Assembly (NCBI RefSeq): GCF_003173615.1
Contig: NZ_QGNA01000007.1
Span: 1 to 64,000, forward strand
Direction: 5' to 3'
DNA length: 64,000 nucleotides
DNA from: Falsiroseomonas bella
GTDB taxonomy: Bacteria; Pseudomonadota; Alphaproteobacteria; Acetobacterales; Acetobacteraceae
Part shown: one piece after another, positions 33,371-47,393 of the stretch
Layout: every line of letters starts with the position of its first letter
Position numbering within the stretch: position 1 is the first letter of the stretch
Notes under the pieces: model-generated
Told to the model about the DNA's origin: nothing
Database searches by the model: none
The model's input: the letters and a program-made list of their open reading frames with translations, nothing else
Made by a program: the position numbers and the translations under genes

Positions 33371-34249
33371 TTAGTGGGCCATCACAGCCGCACCTGCTCG
33401 TGAGCCGATCTGCGACCCGGGCAAGGGCACTGTCTCCGGGGCGGGCGGGCGATAGCCCAGTGCCGAATGCGGCCGGACCCGGTTGTAGTGCCGTCGCCAG
33501 CCCTCGATCAGCACCTGCGCCTCCCGAAGCGTGTTGAACACCTCGCCGTTCAGCAGCTCGTCGCGCAGCTTGCCGTTGAAGCTCTCGACGTAGCCATTCT
33601 CCCACGGGCTCGCCTTCTCGATGTAGGCGGTCCTCGCCCCGACGCCCTCGATCCAGCCCTTCACCGCGTCGGCCACGAACTCCGGCCCCTGGTCCGAGCG
33701 GATGTGCGTCGGCGCCCCCCGCGCAATGAACAGATCGGCCAGCACGTCGATCACGTCGGCCGAGGAGAGCTTCCGCGCCACCCGGATCGCCAGCGCCTCG
33801 CGCGTGAACTCGTCCACCACGCACAGCATCCGGAACTTCCGACCCTCCCGCGTCCGGTCCTCGACGAAGTCATATGCCCACACATGATTGGCGTGCTCCG
33901 GCCGCAGCCGCACGCAGGACCCGTCCCCCAGCCACAACCTGCCGCGCTTCGGCTGCCGCGGCGGCACCTTCAGCCCCTCGCGACGCCAGATCCGCTCCAC
34001 CCGCTTCCGGTTCACCGCCCAGCCCGCATCCCGCAGCAGCGCCGTGATCCGCCGGTAGCCATACCGCCCGTAGCGCTTCGCAAGCTCGACGATGTCCGCC
34101 GTCAGTGCCGCTTCGTCGTCCGGCGCACGCGCCGCCTTCCGCTGCGTCGATCTGTGGTGCCCCAGCACCGCGCAGGCCCTCCGCTCCGACACGCCGAGCT
34201 CGCGCACGACGTGTTCGACGCAGGCCCGCCGCCGCGCAGGGCTCACCAC
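33371..34249 (-). CDS. IS3-family transposase OrfB (DDE integrase domain)
   Basis: The protein is 292 residues. An HTH_21-type region (LAKRYGRYGYRRITALLRDA) is followed by the rve integrase core with the catalytic triad: Asp in VWAYDFVED, Asp in HIRSDQGPEFVA and Glu in ENGYVESFNGKLRDELL. The end GWRRHYNRVRPHSALGYRPP is typical. It overlaps orfA by seven bases in another frame, so the active OrfAB product is expected from frameshifting. It looks intact. Confidence 0.93.
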   Translation of the reverse strand: MVSPARRRACVEHVVRELGVSERRACAVLGHHRSTQRKAARAPDDEAALTADIVELAKRYGRYGYRRITALLRDAGWAVNRKRVERIWRREGLKVPPRQPKRGRLWLGDGSCVRLRPEHANHVWAYDFVEDRTREGRKFRMLCVVDEFTREALAIRVARKLSSADVIDVLADLFIARGAPTHIRSDQGPEFVADAVKGWIEGVGARTAYIEKASPWENGYVESFNGKLRDELLNGEVFNTLREAQVLIEGWRRHYNRVRPHSALGYRPPAPETVPLPGSQIGSRAGAAVMAH

Positions 34250-34533
34250 TTTCCCGAGGCGGCTTCCTTCAGGATGACCTTCTCGAGCGTCAGGTCCGAC
34301 ACCGCTTTCCGCAGCCGCGCGTTCTCACGCTCGAGCTCCTTCAGCCGCTTCACCTGGTCGAGCTTCAGGCCACCAAACTCCGTCCGCCAGCGGTAGTACG
34401 TCGGCTCCGTCACCCCAATCGCCCGCACCGCATCGGCCACCGTCTTGCCCTGGCCCATCAGCACCTCCGCCTGCCGGAGCTTCGCAACAATCTCCTCCGG
34501 CGTGTGCGCCTTCTTCCGCGCCATCCCAGCCAC
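34243..34533 (-). CDS. IS3-family transposase OrfA
   Basis: This 96-residue protein has an HTH_8-type DNA-binding domain (HTPEEIVAKLRQAEVLMGQG; IGVTEPTYYRWRTEFGGL). A leucine-zipper-like helix follows (QVKRLKELERENARLRKAVS), as in all IS3 OrfA proteins. It binds the terminal repeats and contributes the N-terminus of OrfAB. It appears intact. Confidence 0.92.
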   Translation of the reverse strand: MAGMARKKAHTPEEIVAKLRQAEVLMGQGKTVADAVRAIGVTEPTYYRWRTEFGGLKLDQVKRLKELERENARLRKAVSDLTLEKVILKEAASGKW

Positions 34534-41177: not shown

Positions 41178-43346
41178 CTACCCCCGCACCGTCTCGTAGG
41201 CGCTGCCGCCGCGGCGGATGGCGTCGAGCGTCATCGCCGAGGCCTGCCGCGCGATCTGACCGGCGAGCAGCCGCAGCCGCGCCTCGACGCCGGCGTCCGC
41301 CCCGCGCGCGTCGATGTTGATGGTCTGCTGGATGAGCGGGCCACCCGGCGACACGCCGTTCGGCAGCACGGTCCCGCCGCGGTCCGGCACGAACCACTCG
41401 GGCCCGCGCTCGCCGACGATGTAGGGCTGGCCGGCGGCGACTGGCCCGCCCTCGGCCCGAAACAGCCCGCCGAGCCAGGAGCCGATGCCGTCGAACCAGC
41501 TGCCGGCGCCGAGGCTGGTGAGACCGGCCGAGACGGCGTTGCCGAGCGGCTCGGTGATGGTGCGCCGGGCGATGATGCGGGTAATGTCCTGCAGCAGGCC
41601 CTGCGTGACCTTCGACAGCTTGTCGCCGCGCACGATCGCGTCCTCGAAGGCCGAGGAGAACGCGAAGCCCAGCTCCCGCGCCGCCTCGCGCGTGCCCTCG
41701 GTGCTGCGCTGAAGGCGGCGCTCGGCCTCCTCCAGATCGTCCAGCGCGCGCTGCGCCTCCCGCCCGATCGTCTCGTCGGGGATCGGCCGGCCGGCGCGTT
41801 CGGCGCGCTGCACCAGGTCGCCGAGCCGCTCCAACCGGCGCTGGTAGCGCTCATAGGCGGTCTCGTTGTCCTGGATCAGCCGCTCGCGCTCGCGCAGCAG
41901 GTCGTTCAGCTGCCGCTCGGCGTCGCGCGCCTCCCGCGCGCCCTCGGTGCTGGCGCGGCGCACCGCGGCGATGCGCGGCTCCAGCCGGCGCAGCGCCTCG
42001 TCGCGCTCCTGCAGCGCGAGCGTCTCGAGGCGGGTGCGCTCGGCGGCGGTGACGGCGCCGGCCGCCTCGGCCTCCCGCAGGCGCCGGACACGTTCCTCGT
42101 ACTCCCGGTTGATCCGGAAGCGGTCGTCGAGATCGCGGGTGAGCTCCTGGACGTCCTGTGTGGCGCGGCGCCGGCGGGCATCGGCCGCGGCCTGGCCGGC
42201 GCGCTCCTGCTCCTCAAGGCGGCGGTTGAGCGACTCCCGCTCGGCGGTGTCGATCTCGGCCAGCGTGGCGAAGTAGTCGCGGCGCAGCTCCTCCAGCCGC
42301 GCCCGGCTGTCGACGCCCGCCTGCTGCTCGGCGGTGCCGATCAGGCCCGGGCGGATGCTGCCGCGGCGGACCGGGGCGCGCAGGCTGTCGCGGCCGTCGC
42401 CCTCGCTCTCCAGCCGGCCGATCTGCACCGACAGCGCCTCGGCCTGGCGGCGCAGGCCGGCGAGGCGCTCCTCCTCGCTGCGCAGGCCGGCGCCCTGGCG
42501 GACGCTGTCCACCGCGCGGGCGGCGGCCGAGAGCGCGCGGGCCAGCGCGTTGGACAGGCCGATGGCGCGGTCGAGCTGGCCGAGGAAGTTCTCGGTCGCC
42601 GCCGTCAGCTGGCCGAAGGCGCGGCCGAGCGAGAGCGGCGCGCGGTCGAGCTCGGCGCCGAGGCGCTCGGTGGCGCGCAGCAGGGCGGGAAACACCCGCT
42701 CGGCGGTGAGCTTGCCCTCGGAGCCGAGCTTGCGGAGCTCGCCGATGGAGACGCCGAGCTCGCGCGCCAGGCCCTCGGCCAGCAGCGGCATGGCCTCGAG
42801 GATGGAGCGGAGCTCATCGCCCTGCAGCACGCCGGAGGCCAGCGCCTGGGCGAGCTGCAGGGTCGCGCTGCTGATCTCCTGGGTGGAGGCGCCGGAGACG
42901 ATGGCGACGCGCTGCAGGCCACCGACGAGGCGGACCACCTGGTCGGAGGTGGCGCCGATCTCGCGGGCGGCGATCGAGAAGCGCTGGAAGGCGTCGACGC
43001 TCTCCGAGACCGCGACGCCGGTCGAGAGCGCGTTGCGATAGAGCGCCTCGTAGACCTGCCCGGCACGCTCGACGGAGCCGGTGGCGTTCTGCAGACGCGA
43101 CAGGCCCTGGGTGAGCGCGTCGCCGGCCTGCACCAGGGCACGGGCGGCGACGGCGACACCGGCGATCTGGATGCCGCGCGTGGCGACATCGAGCAGTTCG
43201 AGGGAGCGGGAGGCGCGTTCAGCGCCGCCCTTGATCTGGTCGAGGGAGCGCTGGCCCGTCTCGCCGACCTCGCGCAGCCCCGCCTTGACCCGGGCGGCAT
43301 CGTCCAGCGAGAGGCGCACCGAGACGCGGCGGGTGGCGTCGGCCAT
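41178..43346 (-). CDS. phage tail tape measure protein
   Basis: The 722-residue protein has the tape-measure layout. An N-terminal helical part carries the family block (LQRVAIVSGASTQEISSATL; QLAQALASGVLQGDELRSIL). A long Arg/Glu-rich coiled-coil middle spans roughly residues 270-560. A C-terminal part (FAFSSAFEDAIVRGDKLSKV; RAEGGPVAAGQPYIVGERGP) resembles lambda-type tail length proteins. The length of the helical part would set a rather short tail. It precedes the tip genes by 5 bases. Confidence 0.88.
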   Translation of the reverse strand: MADATRRVSVRLSLDDAARVKAGLREVGETGQRSLDQIKGGAERASRSLELLDVATRGIQIAGVAVAARALVQAGDALTQGLSRLQNATGSVERAGQVYEALYRNALSTGVAVSESVDAFQRFSIAAREIGATSDQVVRLVGGLQRVAIVSGASTQEISSATLQLAQALASGVLQGDELRSILEAMPLLAEGLARELGVSIGELRKLGSEGKLTAERVFPALLRATERLGAELDRAPLSLGRAFGQLTAATENFLGQLDRAIGLSNALARALSAAARAVDSVRQGAGLRSEEERLAGLRRQAEALSVQIGRLESEGDGRDSLRAPVRRGSIRPGLIGTAEQQAGVDSRARLEELRRDYFATLAEIDTAERESLNRRLEEQERAGQAAADARRRRATQDVQELTRDLDDRFRINREYEERVRRLREAEAAGAVTAAERTRLETLALQERDEALRRLEPRIAAVRRASTEGAREARDAERQLNDLLRERERLIQDNETAYERYQRRLERLGDLVQRAERAGRPIPDETIGREAQRALDDLEEAERRLQRSTEGTREAARELGFAFSSAFEDAIVRGDKLSKVTQGLLQDITRIIARRTITEPLGNAVSAGLTSLGAGSWFDGIGSWLGGLFRAEGGPVAAGQPYIVGERGPEWFVPDRGGTVLPNGVSPGGPLIQQTINIDARGADAGVEARLRLLAGQIARQASAMTLDAIRRGGSAYETVRG

Positions 43347-43436
43347 GGTGCCCTCTCCGGCTATCGGTTTCGTTAGTTGCGTTTACTGCGATCGCTTCGT
43401 ATAAGGGCGAGCAACCAGAGGCCACTGGAGGGCCCC

Positions 43437-43892
43437 ATGCTCGCTCTGCTCGACCAGGCCGAGCCCATCGTCGCCGACGAGGCCGAGGCCGCCATCGCCA
43501 AGACCGCCGCCGCCAGCCTGGCCCCCGCCGCCAGGGCCGGTCAGGGCGTGCAGTTGGTGCTGCGCGAGCAGCCCAACGTGGTCGTCCCGCTGCCGGCTCG
43601 CGCGGTTGAAGTCGTGCTCACCGTGCTCGGCGCCATGGCCGAGCGACGGCCGATCTCGGTTATCCCCCACGAGGCCGAACTCACCACGCAGCAGGCCGCC
43701 GACTACCTCAACGTGTCGCGGCCCTTCCTCATCAGCCTTATCGACCGGGGCGAGATCCCCCACCGAATGGTGGGGCGGCATCGGCGTGTGCGGTTCGCAG
43801 ACCTATTGGCATTCGAGCGCACCTCCGCCGACAAGCGGAAGCAGGCGCTGGCGGAGATGGCCGCGGAGGCGCGCCGGCTGGGACTGGACTGA
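43437..43892 (+). CDS. excisionase-type helix-turn-helix antitoxin
   Basis: The product is 151 residues. An N-terminal region (GVQLVLREQPNVVVPLPARA, VEVVLTVLGAMAERRPISVI) precedes a MerR/excisionase-type helix-turn-helix (LTTQQAADYLNVSRPFLISL, IDRGEIPHRMVGRHRRVRFA). This two-part form is the known antitoxin partner of PIN-domain toxins; it would bind the toxin and repress the pair. The gene is opposite in strand to the phage tail genes around it and lies 3 bases before the toxin start. Confidence 0.8.
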   Translation: MLALLDQAEPIVADEAEAAIAKTAAASLAPAARAGQGVQLVLREQPNVVVPLPARAVEVVLTVLGAMAERRPISVIPHEAELTTQQAADYLNVSRPFLISLIDRGEIPHRMVGRHRRVRFADLLAFERTSADKRKQALAEMAAEARRLGLD

Positions 43893-43895
43893 GGC

Positions 43896-44498
43896 GTGAT
43901 CTCGACCTTCACGGCGTTCTTCGACGCGAATGTCTTTTACGGGGCACGCCTGCGCAGCCTCGTGCTCTTCCTCGCCCAGACGAAGCTGTTCCGGGCGAGG
44001 TGGAGCGACCGGGTGCACGATGAATGGATCCGAAATCTGCTGCAGAAGCGGCCAGACCTGAAGCCTGCTGATCTCGCGCGGACCCGCCAGCTGATGGACG
44101 CATCAGTCCTGGACGCACTGGTCACGGGCTACGAACCGCTCATCGACGCGATGGTCCTGCCGGATCCTGACGACCGCCATGTCCTCGCCGCCGCGGTGGT
44201 CTGCAAGGCGAGTTGCATCGTAACCTTCAACGTCTCCGACTTCCCGCCGGACCGCCTGGCGCCCTACGGCCTGCACGCCGTGCACCCGGACGACTTCCTA
44301 CTCGACGTCGAGAGCATCGATCCGTCGGCCTTCGCCGATGCGGTGCGGGAAGACCTGGATCACTACCGCGCCCCGCCGCTCGAGCTCCCCGAGTATGTCG
44401 TCGCGCTCCGCAAGGCCGGAGTTCCCCGTATCGCGGACCAGATTGGCAAGCTCGCTCCGATCCTGGAGCGGCGACCGAGCGACCTGCCGGCGGATTAG
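43896..44498 (+). CDS. PIN-domain toxin (VapC-like ribonuclease)
   Basis: The 200-residue toxin starts at a GTG at 43896. PIN-domain acidic residues are visible: Asp10 in AFFDANVFYGARL, Glu43 in VHDEWIRN, and the Asp pair at 92-93 in LPDPDDRHVLAAAVVCKA; CIVTFNVSDFPPDRL follows. PIN toxins cleave RNA, often tRNA or rRNA, and are held in check by the antitoxin. The stop overlaps by two bases the stop of the tail chaperone fusion frame on the other strand, so the module fits snugly into the tail operon. Confidence 0.83.
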   Translation: MISTFTAFFDANVFYGARLRSLVLFLAQTKLFRARWSDRVHDEWIRNLLQKRPDLKPADLARTRQLMDASVLDALVTGYEPLIDAMVLPDPDDRHVLAAAVVCKASCIVTFNVSDFPPDRLAPYGLHAVHPDDFLLDVESIDPSAFADAVREDLDHYRAPPLELPEYVVALRKAGVPRIADQIGKLAPILERRPSDLPAD

Positions 44499-44824
44499 GT
44501 GGCAGGACTCGCCGCGCTGCGCTCTGCGCTGCCCTCGGCCATGCCGATGCGGATAGCGAGTAGCAGTTCGGTGGCGGCCCAGCCGCCGGCGCCCAGTTCG
44601 CGCGCCGCGGCGAGCGCGCCGGCGGTGTCGAGCGTCAGGCCGGCCATCGTGACTTCGGCGCAGGTGGTGCCGGCGGCCCAGCAGGCGTGCCCTTCAACGC
44701 TGGCGGGGGTGTGCGCGGCGTAGGGGCAGGCATCGGCGCAGTCGCGGCCGAGGGCGGCACAGCCGCGGCAGTATTCGGGCCCGCGGCCGAAGTGCCAGGC
44801 GGCGCGGGCCCTCAGCCGTTTCCC
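44495..44824 (-). CDS. tail assembly chaperone T-like extension, made by -1 frameshift
   Basis: The frame from the slippery site at 44818-44824 to TAA at 44495 encodes about 107 residues and has no start codon at its 5' end. It begins RLRARAAWHFGRGPEYCRGC. A cysteine-rich segment (CRGCAALGRDCADACPYAA, later HACWAAGTTC) may bind zinc. A helical tail follows (GALAAARELGAGGWAATELL). It is expected only as the C-terminal part of a 231-residue fusion with the upstream G-like protein, as with lambda gpGT, which links tail tube and tape measure during assembly. An internal start is a less likely alternative. Confidence 0.72.
   Translation of the reverse strand, partial: GKRLRARAAWHFGRGPEYCRGCAALGRDCADACPYAAHTPASVEGHACWAAGTTCAEVTMAGLTLDTAGALAAARELGAGGWAATELLLAIRIGMAEGSAERSAASPAT
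44777..44824 (-). promoter_or_regulatory. -1 programmed frameshift signal
   Basis: Reading leftward, the slippery heptamer G GGA AAC (44824 to 44818) is in the exact zero frame of the G-like gene. It is followed by a 6-base spacer GGCTGA that contains the stop codon. A perfect 9-bp stem then follows, GGGCCCGCG (44811-44803) with CGCGGGCCC (44785-44777), around a 17-base loop. Heptamer, spacer and stem all meet the usual requirements for -1 frameshifting, and lambda uses the closely related GGGAAAG at the same gene position. Confidence 0.82.
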
Positions 44825-45189: not shown

Positions 45190-45355
45190 CGGGGAGATTC
45201 CTTGGTGGGGGTGATTGAGCTGAGCCGCTAAGGTCTGGGGCACGCTCAAGAGGAACGCACACGCATTGACTGGCGTGCCCCAGCGATGGCGCTTGGACCG
45301 ATACGACGCTGTCGCTCCGGTCCTCGGGTCGATTCAGACGTTCAACGGCCGCGGC

Positions 45356-46366
45356 TCAGAAGGTATTTGCCCTAACGAGCCCGATGAGACGACGGAAGTC
45401 GGCATCGGCGCTGTCGCTCTTCCAGCGGTTCACGAAGCGACACACGATCTGCAGGTTGCCCGGCTCATAGTGTCCTGCACTGTCGATCCGATCGAGCGAG
45501 CAACGCAGCTCGGGGTCGCTACCGTCCTCATCAAATTGCAACGCGATCCCGGTGATCGCACAGAGGCCGTCCTGATCATCGATGAGGGATGCGACGTACT
45601 TTTCCAGCGCCGGCTTGTCGAAGGACGTGCGCTTGTCCTTCAGGGTGCGCAGCACCTGCTGACCATTCGCGGCAGCCACCGTGCTGAACACGGTCTCAAC
45701 CATCCGAAATATGGTCTTGCGCTTGGCGTCATAGATGGTCGCGGGGTTGCGGCCGGTTCGCACAACCTTTGCCTGCCATTCGGGCCTGCCGTGCCAGGGC
45801 TCGAGGCCGACGCCATCAATGAGAGCGAGCGCGTATTCCGCATTGTCGGGTGAGAGCTGCTGCAACGTGCCTTCGGTGAAGAGGAAATCGCGAGCCTTTG
45901 GGTGGAGGCCGGCCCAAGGCAGGGGGCGTCCCTTTCGGTCGCGGTCTCGCCATGGTTCGGCTGGCTTGTGCAGCTCGAAGACGCGAGGGCCATCGCGCTG
46001 CGGATTGAAGGAGGGCATCAGGGTGATCTCGACGGGCTCAGGCCGCGAGATCGTCCACCACAGCTTATCCTTCTCCCTGTGGATCCAGACGTCACCGCTT
46101 GTCTCGGCGATGGCATCGTTCAGGCCGAACCAGCGTGAAGCGACCGCCCGTGTGGGAATCTCCATGCGGGCCGTCTTGAGGTTTGCCACTGCGAAGTCGA
46201 CGAAACCGTCGCGGTCCCGGCGCTCCCAAAAGGGATGGACGCGCTCGTTGTTGATGGTCGCGACGGTGCCGCGCTCCAGACATCTCGGCCAGAGATAATT
46301 CGACTGACCGAAGTTCGCGATGAAGACCCTCAACGCTATTGCCTCTTCCCCGTCGGCGGCGCTCAC
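45356..46366 (-). CDS. HNH endonuclease-like protein inside the tail module
   Basis: The product is 336 residues from the GTG at 46366; a TTG at 46333 with GGGGAAGAGG upstream may be the true start (RVFIANFGQSNYLWPRCLER). The C-terminus is HNH-like: DDQDGLCAITGIALQFD, then SLDRIDSAGHYEPGNLQIVC and RFVNRWKSDS, where DRID...GNLQ-VC-x-x-N is the catalytic/metal region. The N-terminal ~200 residues are not recognised (WIHREKDKLWWTISRPEPVE). It sits between tail tube and chaperone genes, where free-standing homing endonucleases or anti-phage nucleases are found. Function is inferred only. Confidence 0.68.
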   Translation of the reverse strand: MSAADGEEAIALRVFIANFGQSNYLWPRCLERGTVATINNERVHPFWERRDRDGFVDFAVANLKTARMEIPTRAVASRWFGLNDAIAETSGDVWIHREKDKLWWTISRPEPVEITLMPSFNPQRDGPRVFELHKPAEPWRDRDRKGRPLPWAGLHPKARDFLFTEGTLQQLSPDNAEYALALIDGVGLEPWHGRPEWQAKVVRTGRNPATIYDAKRKTIFRMVETVFSTVAAANGQQVLRTLKDKRTSFDKPALEKYVASLIDDQDGLCAITGIALQFDEDGSDPELRCSLDRIDSAGHYEPGNLQIVCRFVNRWKSDSADADFRRLIGLVRANTF

Positions 46367-46436
46367 GAGAGGGAGATATTCTGGCGGCCTTGATGCGAAA
46401 GCGGAAGAGCTCGCCAGGCCGGACCCGGCTGAAGCG

Positions 46437-47393
46437 TCACGCGTACTCTGTCCCCGCCTGCTGGTTCTTCAGCACGGTGGTCATCATCCGCGTCGCCGTC
46501 GCGTTGAACGCCGCGCGGAATTCGAAGCTCGCCTCGACGCCGGCGGGCCCCTCTATCGGCGTCTTCGCGAGCGCCAGATAGACCTCGTGCAGCGTGAAGG
46601 TGAGGCTGCGGTTCGCGTCGATGGTGAACGCGAAGGCGAACTCCGCCGCGGTGCCGTTCTGCGCCTGCGTCAGCAGTGTCGTGTCGGCAAAGCGCGCGGT
46701 GATCTGGCCGGTGGCGCGGGCGATGCCGGGATCCGCGCCCTCGATCTTGCGATCGGCGCGGATTGTGCGCACCGCCTCGACGCTGTTCGAGTAGGCGAGC
46801 CGCGCGCCGGTAACCTGCGCCAGCGCAGAGCCGGCGCGAGAGATGGAGCCCTGCGCCTTGTTGAAGGCCGTGTAGGCGGCCGAGACCGGTGTGCCGCCGG
46901 AGGACGAGCCCGAGCGCGTCGAGCCCTGGGCGATCAGCTTGATTGTCGCCGTCGCCGGCCCGGTCGGCGAGAAATCGATCTCCAGCGCGTCCGCGCGCAC
47001 GCCGGCGCAGACGTCGTAGCTCGGCACGTCCGGGTAGCCGATCTCGATCGCCTGCGAGGGCAGCGTCGCCGCACCCGATCCGAAAGTATGGGTGAAGTTC
47101 GGGTTGGTGCCGGTGGTGGTCGGCGCGCCGAGTAGCAGCCGCAGCCAGTGCCCGATGTTGATCAGGTCCACCGGCACGACGACGTCGCCCTCGACGGTGA
47201 CGGTGTCGAAGAACGGCGCGGCCGGATCGCGATTGCCGCCGAGGCCGATAACATCGGCATCCAGCAGCGGCTGCTCGGCGCCGAGGTTGCAGGAGAGAAA
47301 GGGCACGCGCCGCCAGTTGCCGCCCGGCGCGGTGCCGTAGGTGACCTCGGGGATCATGAGCAGGCGCGAGTTGGCACCGATGGCACGGGGCAT
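46437..47393 (-). CDS. phage tail tube protein
   Basis: This 318-residue protein begins MPRAIGANSRLLMIPEVTYG, TAPGGNWRRVPFLSCNLGAE, typical of the Phage_tube_2-type major tail proteins. The rest is beta-rich with VTVEGDVVVPVDLINIGHWL, PNFTHTFGSGAATLPSQAIE and a C-terminal TPIEGPAGVEASFEFRAAFN. It polymerises around the tape measure to form the tail tube. It lies next to the connector genes, as in siphoviral structural order. Confidence 0.83.
   Translation of the reverse strand: MPRAIGANSRLLMIPEVTYGTAPGGNWRRVPFLSCNLGAEQPLLDADVIGLGGNRDPAAPFFDTVTVEGDVVVPVDLINIGHWLRLLLGAPTTTGTNPNFTHTFGSGAATLPSQAIEIGYPDVPSYDVCAGVRADALEIDFSPTGPATATIKLIAQGSTRSGSSSGGTPVSAAYTAFNKAQGSISRAGSALAQVTGARLAYSNSVEAVRTIRADRKIEGADPGIARATGQITARFADTTLLTQAQNGTAAEFAFAFTIDANRSLTFTLHEVYLALAKTPIEGPAGVEASFEFRAAFNATATRMMTTVLKNQQAGTEYA

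Follow-up and report, generated by a model that had tools for sequence, protein, structure and literature searches.

Programmed frameshifting in the tail chaperone genes of phages is well known; a conserved tail chaperone frameshift was reportedly described by Xu et al. in 2004, and the slip site of lambda is GGGAAAG. In the lambda model, as given in the excerpted text of PMC5009743, G attaches to the tape measure protein, GT recruits the tail tube subunit through its T domain, and the ratio of the two products matters. The locus analyzed here lies in a 64,000 nt stretch of DNA from Falsiroseomonas bella (contig NZ_QGNA01000007.1, the window from here on) and has the same layout as lambda gpG/gpGT in that source, with a short chaperone and a -1 extended fusion encoded between the tail tube and tape measure genes. 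Unlike that of lambda, the slip site here has AAC at its end, and it is followed by a strong hairpin; its T, which may differ from lambda T, begins with a Cys4 motif. The Rhodobacter capsulatus phage RcKemmy (MW677517, RcC cluster; PMC8601537) resembles it in G (38% identity), in GGGAAAC and in a T frame with Cys4, and its G-T CDS is annotated as joined; its G stop is located 90 nt past the heptamer, compared with 3 nt in the window. A passage of PMC8601537 implies that most R. capsulatus phages show the frameshift. For two further groups the likeness is in the slip sites: the Caulobacter phages phiCbK and Colossus, with frameshifted pre-tape-measure chaperones and the sites AAAAAAC and GGGAAAC (excerpts of PMC3556154), and the haloarchaeal viruses HCTV-1, -2 and -5, which differ in having archaeal hosts and carry G_GGA_AAC and A_AAA_AAC in two of the three (excerpts of PMC5009743). 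Against this background, the present signal is unusually well supported, and the Cys4 part of T and the rule that the sites end in AAC are worth following.

Anatomy of the G-T locus

The tail module of this prophage is read on the minus strand in the order tail tube, endonuclease VII/HNH-like gene, G, T and tape measure (Table 1), so that G-T is located between the tail tube and tape measure genes, and cargo genes flank it on both sides. G is a tail chaperone by homology, with a match to PHROG 313; a Foldseek search of G against the PDB returned nothing below E 0.45, and the match to HK97 came only from the second-look aligner. The signal is on the minus strand, a point on which the original prediction was silent, and its described parts hold at the level of single coordinates: the heptamer stands in the G frame as G GGA AAC, and beyond the 6-base spacer GGGCCCGCG pairs with CGCGGGCCC in a perfect 9-bp stem that closes a loop of 17 bases. 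The predicted fold extends this stem inward by three pairs and contains a 1-nt bulge, for a total of 12 pairs and -25.8 kcal/mol. Translation across a -1 shift at the heptamer yields the expected fusion of 231 aa, and the T frame, which was said to have no start of its own, stays open upstream across all of G and has its first ATG only at T codon 58 (44647-44645), 3′ of the Cys motif.

Table 1 Features of the G-T locus and its surroundings in the window
Feature	Position	Strand	Remark
Tail tube gene, upstream	46437..47393	minus	Phage_tube_2, E 6.4e-51
Endonuclease VII/HNH-like gene, between tail tube and G	46366-45356	minus-strand transcription order	
G-like tail assembly chaperone gene, 125 aa	45189-44812	minus	ATG start, AAGGAA upstream
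Slippery heptamer GGGAAAC, G-frame phase G GGA AAC	44824-44818	minus	close to the end of G
Spacer GGCTGA, 6 nt	44817-44812	minus	includes the G stop TGA, 44814-44812
Hairpin 5′ arm	44811-44803	minus	nine pairs with the 3′ arm
Loop of the 9-bp stem, 17 nt	44786..44802	minus	44802-44800 pair with 44789-44787 in the predicted fold, 44786 bulged
Hairpin 3′ arm	44785-44777	minus	nine pairs with the 5′ arm
Cys4 motif of T (C17, C20, C27, C31)	44726..44770	minus	invariant in alignment A5
T frame, 107 codons and stop	44495..44818	minus	read after the -1 shift
PIN_3 and HTH_17 pair, toxin-antitoxin-like	43377-44498	plus	between T and the tape measure gene
Tape measure gene, downstream	41178..43346	minus	TMP_3, E 1.3e-50

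G and GT are very probably tail chaperones joined by a programmed -1 frameshift at GGGAAAC with its hairpin; that slippage occurs, and its rate, we infer. The majority of ribosomes would terminate at the G stop and release G, and a minority would pause on GGA-AAC at the hairpin, slip one base back to GGG-AAA and continue in the T frame to give the 231-aa GT fusion. By analogy with lambda (parts of PMC5009743), the tape measure protein would be coated by G, with tail tube protein recruited through the T domain, so that the rate of shifting would set the G:GT ratio. The heptamer alone was rejected as evidence, as GGGAAAC is about as frequent in the window as chance predicts (4 copies vs 3.38 expected), and chance therefore had to be tested by comparison.

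Conservation of the slip site, the two frames and the hairpin

Relatives were collected from the host genome, from 99 related genomes (17 with a match), from 385 genomes of the class (23 with a match), from phage records (17 with a match) and plasmid records (3 with a match), from viral contigs (the best 60 to 80 per scan) and from named genomes (the best 80), and the homologous codon was located by a profile of G. Among the 446 loci, 441 had a G match, 354 were distinct and 333 scored >60 with the site inside the contig. A slippery heptamer stands at the exact aligned codons in 329 of these 333 distinct loci, which are related and do not count as independent events; 202 sites are AAAAAAC, 123 GGGAAAC and 4 AAAAAAA, so that 325 of the 329 end in AAC, and none of the 329 ends in G (AAG). 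The four exceptions have a stop inside the site (L061), GGGGAAG (L297), a 1-nt shift at an A run (L326) and ACAAAAC (L364). The G stop falls 3 nt past the heptamer throughout the 87-member cluster of the window, and in a separate collection (80 loci, the best matches among the named genomes) AAAAAAC and the Cys motif were both present in 77 of 77 distinct loci.

One of the AAAAAAA loci, L353, has an extra A, and the resulting run of eight A places G and T in a single frame; this is a natural or an assembly-made loss of the frameshift. A continuous single frame in homologues, which the original prediction took to speak against frameshifting, was found in this one locus of the 333 and not in the others. 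That a sequencing error or a decaying gene mimics the frameshift is the most improbable of the alternatives: the single-frame form exists, and the PIN/HTH pair inserted beside T could mark decay, but 328 of 333 distinct loci have the two-frame layout, as does each of the four host-genome copies, and both frames are under purifying selection. L353 could also point, together with the runs of about seven A in the AAAAAAC relatives, to a fusion made by transcriptional rather than ribosomal slippage. The site in the window, however, has only GGG and AAA, runs that are too short for RNA polymerase slippage, and this origin of the fusion is highly improbable as well.

Selection on the two frames was examined in 103 ungapped family sequences, with pN/pS taken over 1000 random pairs. 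The most variable codon position upstream of the heptamer is the third of the G frame (0.296), and downstream it is the third of the -1 frame (0.329), so that codon conservation carries over the frame change, with the phase passing from one frame to the other at the heptamer, as the original prediction would have it. pN/pS was 0.19 for G in its own frame and 0.31 for the downstream -1 frame, and the two remaining frames downstream gave 1.67 and 1.50; T is thus under purifying selection in the -1 frame only, including the region before the ATG at codon 58 with its Cys motif. The drop in variation that had been anticipated is complete from column -2 to column +7, counted relative to the heptamer's first base, where the 103 sequences do not vary at all; this set was chosen for a heptamer and an open T, so that neither counts as evidence here, whereas the codon phase does. 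In a set of 104 sequences under the same selection, the Gly codon GGA is always used at the site and occurs once in 675 codons elsewhere in G.

These data also bear on the reading that T is a separate protein, translated without any fusion either by ribosomes that re-initiate past the G stop or from an internal start, for example the ATG at 44647-44645. An ATG stands at the same place in most of the family rows listed, and the annotation of Nostoc phage Nsp-JY21 lists two separate ORFs. Yet the purifying selection in the -1 frame already covers the region before that ATG, start codons in the T frame number just 5 across the 103 sequences in the interval from -90 to +48 nt, and the fixed heptamer and hairpin would be left unexplained. 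We consider a separate T very improbable, if somewhat less so than the two alternatives above, and retain the programmed frameshift.

Hairpin stability was compared with shuffled sequences that keep the T protein and the family codon usage. The window hairpin has a z of -2.4, and 1.5% of 2000 codon-shuffled versions were as stable or more so. Each of the 84 distinct family sequences folds more stably than the mean of its own shuffles (-24.4 vs -16.9 kcal/mol), with a mean z of -2.07 and 63% below -1.645, and with one representative for each of 41 clusters the mean z was -2.09 (38 below zero, 25 below -1.645). The hairpins of L093, L204 and L313 have z above zero and are no more stable than their shuffles. 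A sliding stability profile over every third sequence reaches its minimum directly downstream of the heptamer, so that folding, a check put forward in the original prediction, shows this stretch to be the most stable of the region.

Far relatives (38 thinned sequences) have a common helix whose register, numbered from the heptamer, is i+j=59 and in which 75.6% of cells pair vs 67.0% for the 9-bp register of the original prediction, and that exact register was accordingly rejected as the family structure; the nine outer pairs of the window sit in the neighboring register, with a bulge. Covariation in register i+j=59 amounts to 34 double changes vs 14.8 after shuffling (0 of 500). Slid versions of the helix pair at 41-56%, and sliding by +1 gives 33 double changes vs 34 but a covariation score of 0.179 vs 0.251; this control favors register i+j=59, which was derived from the same sequences. 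RNAalifold on the 38 sequences gave mixed registers and a weak structure (-2.58 kcal/mol). The stem had been regarded as special to this phage, which it is not, as far relatives also keep one, equally spaced from the heptamer and shifted slightly in register.

The Cys4 motif of T and the AAC sites

C17, C20, C27 and C31 are invariant in the 47 aligned T domains of alignment A5, which leaves out L164, whose T lacks two of the four Cys. The motif is present in 155 of 176 distinct loci, and the misses are truncated, rearranged or weak loci, plus L164. A Cys-rich T, put forward as a special feature of this phage, is therefore the rule in this superfamily, as seen in the 47 aligned domains and in the 77 of 77 separate loci. 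The predicted T fold is compact (mean pLDDT 92.7, pTM 0.84), its first helix begins right after the slip, and the four Cys may bind a metal. Fold searches with the T model gave nothing clear (best E 4.0 in the PDB and 0.44 in BFVD), with rows named tape measure chaperone only at E 3.3 and 4.7, and a T profile against PDB sequences returned capsid proteins only, at E 0.018 or worse. A literature search for a zinc-binding tail chaperone found none, the sole match using the words in unrelated places in its accessible text, and no Roseomonas prophage paper on these subjects was found.

The Pfam family DUF7697 (PF24752) matches 36 of the 47 aligned T domains at E 0.01 or better and DUF1799 matches 6 of the 47, but the window T matched neither model. 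PHROG 11212 matches the T of L096, and DUF7697 matches the C-terminal part of the same T. The Cys4 part is absent from both models, which are 52 (DUF7697) and 55 (PHROG 11212) long; it falls outside DUF7697 because that model has only 52 residues and matches the C-terminal part of the L096 T. Plausibly, the Cys4 part is missing from the family models because it is reached only by the frameshift. Its absence fits gene callers that place the beginning of T at an internal codon; in Nostoc phage Nsp-JY21, for instance, the second ORF begins 120 nt into the T frame. A record named Nostoc phage (L113) has G and T sequences identical to those of L114, recorded as a Synechococcus phage; both are related to this mostly alphaproteobacterial family, and the named hosts may deserve a check.

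According to passages of PMC4066793, the AAC-to-AAA shift is tolerated less readily by the bacterial ribosome and is poor in E. coli. The literature puts about half of bacteria at one lysine tRNA and links a second one to poorer AAG slipping in Thermus. The host genome has both tRNA-Lys(CUU), as a separate gene, and tRNA-Lys(UUU), which together with the 325 of 329 sites ending in AAC suggests that the type of slip site follows the host tRNA set and that the strong hairpin compensates. The fixed C could also result from common ancestry alone, though the XXX part of the heptamer has switched between GGG and AAA. In a survey of the class, a loose pattern for tRNA-Lys(CUU) matched 137 of 143 genomes; the survey was discarded and yields no count, as a control pattern matched many of the genomes too. 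Tentatively, and with less confidence than we would need to favor it, hosts with tRNA-Lys(CUU) might lock the tail frameshift to AAC-type, eukaryote-like sites with a strong covarying hairpin, AAG no longer slipping; the slip would append a zinc-binding Cys4 domain that annotation misses for want of a start codon, and the last base of the heptamer would read out the lysine tRNA set of the host. The family is a large and clean comparative case of tail chaperone frameshifting that uses a site class poor under E. coli rules, and its AAC sites make the dependence of bacterial frameshift rules on host tRNAs testable.

Genes around G and T

The host genome has four copies of G in total, all with the heptamer; the three others belong to further prophages (C12:177445-177819, C11:76401-76775 and C8:227069-227443) and are 90-98% identical. 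Positions 45190-46436 of the window, and the same interval in L005-L084, form a cargo slot between the tail tube gene and G. The gap between these genes is at least 600 bp in 62 of 64 relatives whose locus contains both; 60 of those relatives have an ORF of at least 80 aa inside the slot, and the longest ORF is antisense in 40 of 58. Ten hand-picked cargo proteins all had defense-like Pfam matches (TIR, caspase, SIR2, GmrSD, patatin, Mrr and others), and 8 of the same ten matched PADLOC models; ten other cargo proteins gave a Pfam match in 5 cases. The cargo of the window is the HNH gene, found in one of 80 loci (L028).

On the other side of T, the PIN_3/HTH_17 pair is antisense to the tail genes, and only L033 has one among 80 loci; the interval between T and the tape measure gene is too small for such a pair in 62 of 69 relatives. 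A pair of overlapping ORFs farther away, on the minus strand at 33371-34533, resembles on visual inspection the OrfA/OrfB of an IS3-type transposase, a group of enzymes that also uses -1 frameshifting.
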